The notes under the pieces: generated by a model
Databases searched by the model: none
What the model saw: only the letters and a program-made list of their open reading frames with translations
Told to the model about the DNA's origin: nothing
Source of the DNA: Ariolimax columbianus
Lineage: Eukaryota > Mollusca > Gastropoda > Stylommatophora > Arionidae
Length of the DNA stretch: 64,000 nt
Reading direction: 5' to 3'
Assembly (NCBI GenBank): GCA_036924085.1
Contig: JAVGWX010000007.1
Location: 34,275,953 to 34,339,952, forward strand
Part shown: in pieces, positions 29,949 to 37,359 of the stretch
Position numbering within the stretch: the first letter of the stretch is position 1
How the letters are laid out: every line of letters begins with the position of its first letter
Position numbers and translations under genes: made by a program

Positions 29949-29961
29949 AATATGAAAAAGG
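29949..29961. repeat. Left target-site duplication, aatatgaaaaagg
   Basis: Thirteen bases identical to 37347-37359. The two copies enclose the whole rRNA-plus-LINE composite. Confidence 0.92.
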
Positions 29962-29990
29962 ATCTGGGGTAGTTGTCTCGCCGCGGCGAC
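29962..29990 (+). promoter_or_regulatory. Putative pre-rRNA transcription start, used as element 5' end
   Basis: The element begins atctggggtagttgtctcgc. The copy at 63498 begins at the same base after unrelated flank. Shared 5' ends of independent insertions usually mark the RNA 5' end, here lying 634 bases upstream of 18S. I infer this is the Pol I start point. No promoter upstream of it is carried along. Confidence 0.4.
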
Positions 29991-30595
29991 TCAATTTCAA
30001 CCAGTGTTCGTAAAGCGATCTCAGTCCCGCCAGGCGGAGCGATAGCGCGGGCTTGCGGAAAACGCTCGCCTGCCTTTCCCCGTAGTGCGAATTGGGTGCG
30101 GTTTGTGGTAGTGGCTCCTCCACCGAGGTGCGCTAGTCTGGTCCGTATCAGGAAACGTGGTCCGTCCGTGGTGATTTATCTAAGACTTATAGCAGAGCTC
30201 GACAGTACGTCTCGCTGGTGGTCCGACTCTCGCAAAGAGCTTGTGACCGGCAAATGGAAAGCAGGAATCGTTGCCTCGAGGCCCTGCGTTCTCCCTACGG
30301 AGAAGAAGGGCAGGCCAAATTGTGTCTCTAGTCCCAGTGAAATTCGTCGCCGAGGTCGTTGGGATCCGTTCTGCACAGAGCGCTGCCATCCCTCCTCGAG
30401 CGAGCCCGGTCGGTCGGTCGTCTGCTGGTGCGTGTGGGAGGCCCCTGTCAGGCGGTCCTAGGTCGACGGAGTGAGGGACGGGTGGAACAAACCGTCCGTC
30501 CCGTCAGTCGGTCCCTGCGGCCGTCGTCCCAGCGAGGCTTTTTACACACCCTTCCTCCGCCGACCGGTGTGTGCTGTACGTACGTCTCCGACAGA
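29962..30595 (+). other. 5' external transcribed spacer-like leader of pre-rRNA
   Basis: GC-rich sequence with tcggtcggtcg-type simple repeats, directly abutting the 18S 5' end. It is about 95% identical by eye to 63498-64000, differing by scattered substitutions and small indels such as around 30290-30320. Frames of 120-160 codons here are open only because of base composition. Confidence 0.75.
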
Positions 30596-31763
30596 TATCT
30601 GGTTGATCCTGCCAGTAGTCATATGCTTGTCTCAAAGATTAAGCCATGCATGTCTAAGTTCACACTGTCTCACGGTGAAACCGCGAATGGCTCATTAAAT
30701 CAGTCGAGGTTCCTTAGATGACACGATCCTACTTGGATAACTGTGGCAATTCTAGAGCTAATACATGCTTACCAAGCTCCGACCCTCGCGGAAAGAGCGC
30801 TTTTATTAGTTCAAAACCAATCGTCGTTTCCCCTCGCGGGGTTGCGGCGTCCCCGCTGGTGACTCTGGATAACTTTGTGCTGATCGCATGGCCTCATGTG
30901 CCGGCGACGCATCTTTCAAATGTCTGCCCTATCAAATGTCGATGGTACGTGACATGCCTACCATGTTTGTAACGGGTAACGGGGAATCAGGGTTCGATTC
31001 CGGAGAGGGAGCATGAGAAACGGCTACCACATCCAAGGAAGGCAGCAGGCGCGCAACTTACCCACTCCCGGCACGGGGAGGTAGTGACAAAAAATAACAA
31101 TACGGGACTCTTTCGAGGCCCCGTAATTGGAATGAGTACACTTTAAACCCTTTAACGAGGATCTACTGGAGGGCAAGTCTGGTGCCAGCAGCCGCGGAAA
31201 TTCCAGCTCCAATAGCGTATATTAAAGTTGTTGCAGTTAAAAAGCTCGTATTTGGATCTCAGGCGCAGGCGGGCGGTCCGGCTCGCGCCGGTTCACTGCC
31301 CGTTGTCTCCTGCCCTACCGTCTGCCGGCTCTCTCCCACGGGTGCTCTTCGCTGAGCGTCCTGGGTGGCCGGCGCGTTTACTTTGAAAAAAATTAGAGTG
31401 TTCAAAGCAGGCCTTGGCTGCCTGAATAATGGTGCATGGAATAATGGAATAGGACCTCGGTTCTATTTTGTTGGTTTTCGGAACTGGAGGTAATGATTAA
31501 CAGGGACAAACGGGGGCATTCGTATTGCGGCGTTAGAGGTGAAATTCTTGGATCGCCGCAAGACGAGCTACTGCGAAAGCATTTGTCAAGAATGTTTTCA
31601 TTAATCAAGAACGAAAGTCAGAGGCGCGAAGACGATCAGATACCGTCGTAGTTCTGACCATAAACGATGCCGACTAGCGATCCGCAGGAGTTGCTTCGAT
31701 GACTCTGCGGGCAGCTTCCGGGAAACCAAAGTGTTTGGGTTCCGGGGGAAGTATGGTTGCAAA

Positions 31764-36400: not shown

Positions 36401-37319
36401 ATTTCCAGAGGTGGTAGAAAATATACCAGGTATTGCAAACAAAAACTGCCAGAGTGAAAAAGAAAGGAGAGACACTACCCTAAGCTTCATAACGAAAAGC
36501 TACCCAAGCATGGACTGGACCCATGCATACACCGACGGTTCTGTAACAAACACTACACAGAACGGAGGGGCAGGAGCATTCCTGAACCTACCAAATGGCA
36601 GAAAAATAACACTGTCATTCGCTACTGGTAAGTACACAAGCAATTTCAGAGCAGAGGCAGAGGCACTGAGGGCGGCAGTGGAAGAAATGGTAACACACAG
36701 TGAAAATGAGAGCCATATAGTACTGCTGACAGATGCTCTCGAAGTAGTCACAGCGCTAAAAAGCCAGAAAAACACTGAGCTTAATGACTTAAGAGCAGCA
36801 CTCTGCAAACTGTGCCAGCAGTCCGCACCAAAAAGGGTAGTGGTACAGTGGGTTCCGTCACACTGCAACATCCAAGGCAACGAGGAGGCAGACAGACTGG
36901 CAAAAGAAGGTGCAAGGCTACCACAAACAGATACCAGTATGACGTACGAAGAGTCAAAACGGCTTATCAAAGCCAGATACATGTCCAAATGGGAAACCGA
37001 ACATACTGGTTACACCAAAAACGATGCCTATTACCAGTTGAACCGAAGAGAGCAGGTCGTCGTCTTCAGACTTCGCACTGGCCACAACAGACTGAGGTAC
37101 CACCTATTCAACAAATTGAAGATAGGGTGTACCGACGAATGCCCGTGCGGTACTGGTAAAATGACCACTGAACATCTGCTGCAGAACTGCCCGACATACG
37201 AGGATCAGAGAGAGCAGATGTGGCCATTGCCAGTGGAACTGCAAGACAAGCTCTATGGTAGTGGCGAGAGTCTCAGGATGACCGCCGCTTTTTTCGAGAA
37301 AATAATGGTTGCTGTCTGA
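33459..37319 (+). CDS. Intact non-LTR retrotransposon polyprotein (endonuclease-RT-RNase H)
   Basis: A single uninterrupted frame of 1286 codons encoding the enzymes of target-primed reverse transcription. An apurinic-type endonuclease occupies residues ~60-275: ILQWNAEGV, IQETHL (Glu97), GDFNSH (Asp190) and SSDHRPI (Asp267, His268). The reverse transcriptase has GYRPISLLSCVGKLMERM, AGFRQHRSTEDQ, VWVDLEKAFDKVW, GVPQGGVLSPTLFLVYIND and the catalytic FADD (Asp729, Asp730). RNase H has HAYTDGS (Asp1026), RAEAEALRAA, LLTDALEVVTAL and GNEEADRLAKEG. A C-terminal CPCGTGKMTTEHLLQNC motif follows. The frame is open from 33411, but I chose the ATG at 33459 because homology to the non-autonomous leader ends just before it. 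No ORF1 is present. Single-ORF architecture with RNase H fits the I/Ingi-Jockey group. All catalytic residues are present, so it may be active. Confidence 0.95.
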   Translation: MMAAQPIRKTYGAHPEETRQAAIAPGLTPRRGPPLTTGGHPPMCRGVKAHGYGVTSIGQNLKTLKILQWNAEGVINKKLSLTHHLHEGKIDVACIQETHLNNNHKFSIRGYQTFRLDREGHKGGVLILTRNSIPSSAVPVNHTGQAEIVGVDIMAQETKLRIFNLYGPPNRDLSLSSMEVRDSNCIVVGDFNSHSERWGYSDTDSRGDEVEDWEIDANLSLINRPEDSPSFYSRTWHTTSTPDLAFSTQDIHYKIDRQVLNQLASSDHRPIRLTIDMEVSPQETKPLPRWNYKRADWDRFAILTDGLCETINTRNTKMKPMVESLSKAIMQAATETIPRGARKNYKPYWNDELQKVEDAVTNARNMAEREKSMEANIALKAAAAKYKHTLKQTARESWKNKTESLNLDKDGNKLWKLVRAITDESPSNKQITIKQGENLITGKKAANAFVDHYARANHIEVPADKHTDISEELKGHENINTAPEEHMMAKLTMREMEEAMSTPKKRKSPGKDGITNEMLMGLGQTAKKKLLSVLNQSWKRGIVPQAWKDAILVPVPKTGKDKTDPNGYRPISLLSCVGKLMERMINTRLMWHLEEKRILIPQQAGFRQHRSTEDQVILIAQEIEDAYQAQKHTVAVWVDLEKAFDKVWKDGLRVKLRRSDVCGKMYKWINHYLKQRTARVQLQGQMSKKVTLEQGVPQGGVLSPTLFLVYINDITENIPRRVHSSMFADDLAMWTSEKNLTIARNRMQTALTSLEEWANSWLVKINEEKTTCTIFSLSLKPQSTKLSLNGKILQPNDNPTYLGVTFDRRMTWKSQIERNRMKARERMAIMRKLAGTRWGADEGILKKLYTGRVRPVLEYGIAAWTTAAKANFDKVNKFQNQAMKIITGGMKSTPIVELEKITKLQSMTDRRDCRAQLQSEKLRRLTDHPMYQRLNNLGNGKLKRRNFAEIAKAKMHEDPINALTTPKPITTVRKPTWRQDIFPEVVENIPGIANKNCQSEKERRDTTLSFITKSYPSMDWTHAYTDGSVTNTTQNGGAGAFLNLPNGRKITLSFATGKYTSNFRAEAEALRAAVEEMVTHSENESHIVLLTDALEVVTALKSQKNTELNDLRAALCKLCQQSAPKRVVVQWVPSHCNIQGNEEADRLAKEGARLPQTDTSMTYEESKRLIKARYMSKWETEHTGYTKNDAYYQLNRREQVVVFRLRTGHNRLRYHLFNKLKIGCTDECPCGTGKMTTEHLLQNCPTYEDQREQMWPLPVELQDKLYGSGESLRMTAAFFEKIMVAV

Positions 37320-37346
37320 CTGTGTACGCAGAAGAAGAAGAAGAAG
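37320..37346 (+). other. LINE 3' end and (GAA)n tail
   Basis: Only about ten bases separate the stop codon from a tail of five to six GAA repeats. The same ctg(t/c)gtacg-(GAA)n ending is seen at 11440-11464 and 18930-18962, and a similar one at 9812-9825. A short repeated tail instead of poly(A) is usual for several LINE clades. Confidence 0.85.
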
Positions 37347-37359
37347 AATATGAAAAAGG
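37347..37359. repeat. Right target-site duplication, aatatgaaaaagg
   Basis: Identical to 29949-29961. It begins directly after the (GAA)n tail. The first two bases could be counted with the tail. Confidence 0.92.

Follow-up and report, generated by a model that had tools for sequence, protein, structure and literature searches.

An abundant LINE family of Ariolimax columbianus that begins with the 5' end of host pre-rRNA

How does a retrotransposon that is dispersed over a genome come to begin with the 5' end of its host's ribosomal RNA (rRNA) precursor? This question is raised by a 64,000-nucleotide stretch of DNA from the gastropod Ariolimax columbianus, here called the window (C7:34275953–34339952 in the host assembly of 2.294 Gb). 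Window positions 29949–37359 are a single insertion of a long interspersed nuclear element (LINE) framed by perfect 13-bp duplications. The duplicated word AATATGAAAAAGG is found at 29949–29961 and at 37347–37359 and has no other occurrence in the window on either strand; the 7.4-kb unit described in the initial annotation is present as claimed. The insertion is a full-length member of an abundant, recently active LINE family with 1.9 kb of host pre-rRNA at its 5' end. On balance, it is somewhat probable that this pre-rRNA head is re-taken from the host by a template switch from the LINE RNA.

The copy starts with the 5' external transcribed spacer (ETS) of pre-rRNA, the first base of which probably corresponds to the start of transcription by RNA polymerase I (Pol I) (Table 1). 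In the following 18S region, the match to RF01960 spans 30599–31744 (model positions 4–1116), and comparison with the 18S of the species extends it to about 31836, where the last one or two bases can be assigned equally to the adjoining monomer. Identity to the species' 18S is 99.4%, and all seven departures from the majority of copies are private to the window copy. The junction of 18S and monomer is called the standard joint here. An 88-nt 18S-like repeat occurs three times in the monomers (starts at 31773, 31969 and 32151), and four copies of a 43-nt repeat lie between. The 43-nt repeat was assigned to 28S by eye; the Rfam score for 28S is restricted to 32488–32892. Monomers 2 and 3 are 86–89% identical to 18S nt 1174–1244. 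The degenerate 28S ends at most two positions from the end of the model, and the leader adjoins it directly. RVT_1, Exo_endo_phos_2 and RNase_H of Pfam all score above cut-off in the open reading frame (ORF) of 1302 residues. It has 256 related proteins; among the 120 listed, the few with an organism name belong to two gastropods, Littorina saxatilis and Batillaria attramentaria.

The arrangement is repeated throughout the genome. The exact 20-mer at the ETS start has 3,697 occurrences in the 2.29-Gb assembly (1,848 and 1,849 on the two strands), the exact joint 4,654 and the exact 18S 5' start 5,278, and the reversed-pattern controls of all three gave 0 each. The LINE family that bears a pre-rRNA 5' end to new loci, as proposed initially, is thus found dispersed genome-wide. 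All 40 scored matches to the 5' 990 bases of the ORF are at about 100% (1,213 candidates), as are at 99–100% all 40 scored for the ETS (1,673 candidates) and all 40 for the joint (2,460 candidates). In the first 47.4 Mb of C1, a standard joint follows 49 of 72 ETS starts at a distance of up to 4 kb (1.79–1.88 kb in 46 cases), and 51 of 100 joints lack an exact ETS start. Below 44.4 Mb of C1, 100 exact 18S starts were checked for an exact ETS start 560–760 nt upstream; 45 lack one, and the standard joint is present in 17 of these 45. Truncation or mutation of the ETS may account for the 45, or the copies may begin where the mature 18S does.

Further loci were fetched: of the 39 best matches listed for the 5' part of the ORF, apart from the window copy, 20 were taken. 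Twelve are full length and eight are 5'-truncated, the latter ending in (GAA)n. Ten of the full-length copies begin at the first base of the window copy and two at +2 and +8. Together with the window copy, ORFs without internal stop are present in 12 of 21 loci. Target duplications of at least 10 bp flank 12 of the 21, and the longest match among 420 mismatched pairs of flanks measures 7 bp; chance duplications are therefore excluded. The full-length copies L018, L019 and L024 have no clear duplication. These figures agree with the earlier proposal of insertion by target-primed reverse transcription. Duplications and flanks vary between loci, so that there is no fixed rDNA insertion site as in R1/R2-type LINEs (rDNA arrays are outside the comparison).

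Independent accidental chimeras or an assembly artefact are a very improbable explanation. Single LINE–rRNA chimeras are known in mammals (PMC13174262), but thousands of dispersed places, equally divided between the strands, and distinct target duplications within unlike flanks refute this view of the family at large. Some less common heads, described below, may be accidents. The search suggested in the initial annotation, for further rRNA–LINE junctions with their duplications scored, is answered by the same counts, and its view that rRNA and LINE are one inserted unit and no assembly misjoin is borne out by the dispersed copies.

Judging from the variants among copies, the head has very probably been re-taken repeatedly from functional pre-rRNA and not inherited with the body. 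The rates of shared substitution among 13 full-length copies, per kb, are as follows: 18S, 0.8; ETS, 14.3; monomers, 38.9; 28S part, 9.7; leader, 7.7; second half of the ORF, 10.2. The first half of the ORF has 1.0 per kb, but this low value is uninformative because the loci were chosen by their match to the ORF 5' part and are hence young. Singletons are similarly frequent in the 18S (21.8 per kb), the leader (27.0) and the second half of the ORF (26.1); the 18S therefore decays after insertion about like leader and ORF, and inherited 18S variation is nearly nil. The singleton rates of ETS, 28S part and monomers are 33.4, 53.4 and 65.4 per kb, respectively.

A second sample consisted of eight copies in map order, collected from the beginning of C1 wherever an exact ETS start was paired with an exact joint. 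A single pair was passed over (C1:4753534), and the search pattern fixes the last 16 bases of the 18S. On average, two copies differ by 1.1% (18S), 3.8% (ETS), 10.6% (leader), 10.8% (monomers) and 14.7% (28S part). Shared variants are present at 12 of 620 ETS sites, at 0 of 1,239 18S sites, at 64 of 457 monomer sites and at 176 of 909 sites in the 28S part and leader. Over all 21 copies, two of the 1,239 18S sites have shared variants, each in two copies. Shared variation is nil through the 18S from 30770 on and climbs behind the joint.

Coding regions of rRNA hardly change, and their spacers drift. The older copy L033, which begins at 63499 of the window, differs from the young majority by 1.1% in the 18S, 4.6% in the ETS (5.6% in a second alignment) and 3.7–8.0% in its other parts. 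For L034 the differences are 4.0% in the 18S and 18.8% in the fetched part of the ETS. The 18S differences of these two copies sum exactly (14 + 50 = 64) with none in common, and 14 ETS changes are common to both. Because the 18S differences of old copies are unshared and their ETS has drifted, the 18S heads derive from the functional rDNA line and not from the LINE line. Furthermore, four-gamete conflicts are found in 145 of 308 pairs of ETS and body sites and in 46 of 231 pairs within the body.

These patterns bear on a simpler idea, in which the head was captured once and inherited and the constancy of the 18S results from selection on the LINE, for example for an RNA function. The same joint at 4,654 places speaks for an arrangement that is inherited at least on the LINE side. 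Selection would, however, have to hold the 18S more strictly than the second half of the ORF (0.8 versus 10.2 shared substitutions per kb), no 18S change is shared even in copies with ETS 19% apart, and ETS alleles reassort against bodies. The variant patterns, namely an 18S without shared variants in front of diverged bodies, make this idea improbable. The initial annotation had also taken rRNA and LINE to be one RNA. As worded, this is not supported, since head and body have no common history and joining may therefore occur in the cDNA by template switching; co-transcription within rDNA, considered below, would fit the wording.

Template switching has about an even chance of being the usual route by which heads are acquired. 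During target-primed reverse transcription, the LINE RNA would be copied up to the 18S-like monomers in its 5' untranslated region (5'UTR). There the enzyme would cross onto (pre-)rRNA, usually in register via the 18S homology, and copying would continue to the 5' end of the pre-rRNA. Rarer crossings elsewhere would lead to heads with 5.8S and internal transcribed spacers (ITS), with longer 18S, with 28S or with double heads. The LINE would borrow its 5' end from the host and would not inherit it. The 18S-like monomers may serve as landing pads for the crossing. In a more tentative form of this model, the LINE has no inherited 5' end at all, each round crosses via these landing pads in a manner like retroviral strand transfer, and the monomers and the 28S end are fossils of earlier crossings. 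From its stop next to the mature 28S end, the degenerate 28S 3' end may record an end-to-end jump of earlier date; the 18S/28S monomers may record later jumps.

Unusual heads and joints were inspected in L034–L039 and L060–L066, which were chosen for rRNA marks and from which no rate can be derived, and in a few further loci. The 18S is joined to monomer 3 instead of monomer 1 in L011, and it extends to about nt 1793 before the monomers in L034. All four 5.8S loci fetched (ranks 1, 2, 3 and 6 of the 40 scored) are chimeras. Their ITS1-5.8S-ITS2 is followed by 28S 3' part, leader and ORF in L035, is joined to monomer 2 in L036 (ITS2/monomer overlap GAGC, by eye), runs on into the 28S 5' end, followed by 28S 3'-like and leader-like sequence, in L037, and in L038 adjoins a complete ETS start that leads into 18S. 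L039 consists of 28S, 18S from nt 886 and a full LINE. Around this chimera two 28S pieces with 82 identical bases lie 9.5 kb apart (C14:16910438 and 16919947); the pair is a duplication or represents two insertions of like RNAs.

L060–L066 are seven of 245 places where the 18S extends past the standard joint. The 18S border is at nt 1372 in L060, at nt 1393 in L061 and L065, at nt 1575 in L062 and at nt 1290, against an ETS start, in L064. In L063 and L066 the 18S runs into ITS1, and L063 continues from 18S-ITS1-5.8S into a 21-nt piece of 18S, then 28S and then a monomer. The border at nt 1393 (...TAGTTCGCC) recurs in L056, L061, L065 and, by eye, in the short piece within L063; it is an RNA end or a favoured rDNA site. 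The rRNA ends exactly at an ETS start in L038, L056 and L064, in which the LINE part lies beyond the sequence read. L064 (C1:27730268–27732300) is a head dimer, with a second ETS start 1.9 kb after the first and the 18S to nt 1290 between them. rRNA and LINE parts are on the same strand in the loci with unusual heads. Of 20 ETS 5' flanks read, 17 are unlike each other, the LINE and rRNA, and three adjoin sense rRNA or LINE sequence; one of these three, L056, had been expected before fetching from the list of 18S extending past the joint. The rarer heads look like sporadic chimeras, whereas the standard joint with its 4,654 occurrences does not.

Several observations weigh against template switching as described. 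Random crossing within the 18S predicts that shared 18S variants rise toward the joint, and no such rise is found. A single joint dominates (4,654 exact occurrences versus the 245 places with 18S past it). L018, L019 and L023 have both body variants and ETS alleles in common, so that head and body sometimes travel together. An insertion site in rDNA would explain the nt 1393 border equally well, and L046 and L055 may have arisen by insertion into LINE copies that were already there. An RNA starting inside monomer 1, with a crossing that sometimes fails, was also considered. Copies should then start there, but the 5' ends of 13 junction copies without exact ETS start give no support: ten keep 18S over all 318 nt read, one has a broken match and two start elsewhere.

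Another explanation, which we consider possible but doubtful, accounts best for the dominance of one joint and for the sharp limit of homogenised sequence there. LINE masters would reside inside rDNA, joined to 18S and transcribed together with it from the Pol I start; the resulting chimeric RNA would insert anywhere. Exchange with normal units would keep ETS and 18S like the functional ones, and the other heads would be LINE insertions elsewhere in rDNA. Such masters would also account for the fixed 5' end and the recurrent nt 1393 border and would supply a promoter, and melanogaster-type R1 elements outside rDNA are a precedent (PMC2718515). However, many LINE lineages with 5'UTRs 11–15% apart must persist behind the same joint, and multi-piece heads such as that of L063 are hard to produce by insertion; together with the joints at the ETS start, multi-piece heads best fit template switching. 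Additionally, no rDNA-resident copy was seen, the ETS flanks being unrelated DNA apart from the three that adjoin rRNA or LINE. This absence weighs little because rDNA arrays seem to be missing from the assembly.

A tandem rDNA array was sought in the assembly via 5.8S, 18S and 28S marks, and none was recognised; the marks are dispersed (small contigs were not searched apart). Nor was a functional rDNA unit recognised in these searches. In the 5.8S search 40 matches were scored of 53,434 candidates, 100 of the 245 places with 18S past the joint were listed, and the 28S mark is present at 31 places. The sole close pair of 28S marks, that on C14, was considered as an rDNA array and is part of the LINE chimera instead. 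Small contigs may hold the rDNA, or the assembly may lack it. A first 18S 3' pattern matched only the old copy L034 because the species differs from that motif. Scans of viral contigs with the LINE protein, the ETS start and the 18S motif, and one of genome contigs with the 18S motif, gave nothing usable.

The window holds further relatives of the element (Table 1). Past the window edge, L033 contains 18S, one monomer, the 28S 3' part, the leader and the start of the ORF (3,961 bases were read, stopping short of its 3' end). The short element at 8872–9827 is 81% identical to window positions 32529–33462 and is a SINE-like relative of the LINE (SINE, short interspersed nuclear element). SINE28 is a SINE with a 28S-derived head. 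SINEs with 28S heads have a 28S 3' part as head and a LINE-type tail, as in this element; they are non-autonomous and are likened to it by description. 28S-derived SINEs are mentioned in PMC13174262. ORF pieces at 23706–24473 (-), 42299–43093 (-) and 49846–50580 (+) are, by eye, reverse transcriptases of other LINE families.

Table 1. Features of the LINE insertion and of related elements in the window
Feature	Position	Strand	Remark
Left target-site duplication AATATGAAAAAGG	29949..29961	+	
5' ETS of pre-rRNA	29962..30598	+	first base is the common 5' end of full-length copies
18S nt 1–1237, functional sequence with private mutations	30599..31838	+	Rfam RF01960, 930.5 bits
Three degenerate 18S-like/28S-like monomers	31773..32480	+	first overlaps the end of the intact 18S
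Degenerate 28S 3' end	32488..32892	+	RF02543, 73.3 bits, model 3005–3399 of 3401
Leader, common to aligned LINE copies	32893..33410	+	alignments
ORF, 1302 aa, intact: endonuclease, reverse transcriptase, RNase H	33411..37319	+	
3' end and (GAA)n tail	37320..37346	+	
Right target-site duplication AATATGAAAAAGG	37347..37359	+	
Second, older head-bearing copy, 5' end (ETS start)	63499..64000	+	leaves the window at its edge
Short ORF-less relative: 28S 3' part, leader, GAA tail	8872..9827	+	duplication AAATCATAACAC
5'-truncated LINE 3' end	11075..11467	+	inside duplication GATTTGCTTGTTTC
5'-truncated LINE copy	17828..18963	+	no clear duplication; best common word 7 bp

Chimeras of LINEs and rRNA are already known as sporadic events; a family with a renewed head is what differs here. 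In PMC13174262, LINE-1 is described in sporadic chimeras with several RNAs, U6, 5S and 28S among them; the 18 chimeras with 28S have a median segment of 269 nt, and template switching or RNA ligation was proposed for them. As in those chimeras, in which the foreign RNA is mostly in sense orientation, it stands at the 5' end of the LINE within one target duplication, and the head is copied from a functional RNA and not from an element. The copies described here are, in contrast, not isolated events with joints of their own: one long head and one joint are present at thousands of places, and diverged 5'UTRs carry the same fresh 18S.

Drosophila R2 elements with a U12 snRNA or tRNA head are comparable in that the template jump of R2 leads from its own 5' end onto cellular RNA, and one head was suggested by the authors to have possibly founded a subfamily (PMC3414825). 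R2, however, sits in 28S, its heads are short and its U12 form derives from a single jump, whereas the heads described here are dispersed, re-taken pre-rRNA. Full-length melanogaster-type R1 elements outside rDNA carry 7–28 bp of upstream 28S (PMC2718515). Upstream rRNA sequence thus travels with the element beyond rDNA in both cases, but here it comprises about 1.9 kb from the pre-rRNA 5' end, and no rDNA home site is seen. The tripartite chimeric retrogene of Magnaporthe was attributed to double template jumps by a LINE reverse transcriptase (PMC2104539), which resemble the multi-piece heads; its parts, in contrast, copy other transcripts and do not form a standing LINE 5' end. In a search of the open literature, with most subscription papers and repeat databases beyond its scope, no paper was recognised that describes a LINE family with a renewed pre-rRNA head.

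How LINEs gain and keep complete 5' ends is poorly understood. If host pre-rRNA keeps replacing the first 1.9 kb, recombination with cellular RNA would be a routine part of the life cycle of a retroelement and no accident, under either mechanism, template switching or transcription from masters in rDNA. The heads are, moreover, a dated record of past rDNA spacer alleles. In work on this animal, rDNA assembly, mapping and 18S barcoding can be led astray by the thousands of dispersed, near-perfect stretches of 18S and ETS.

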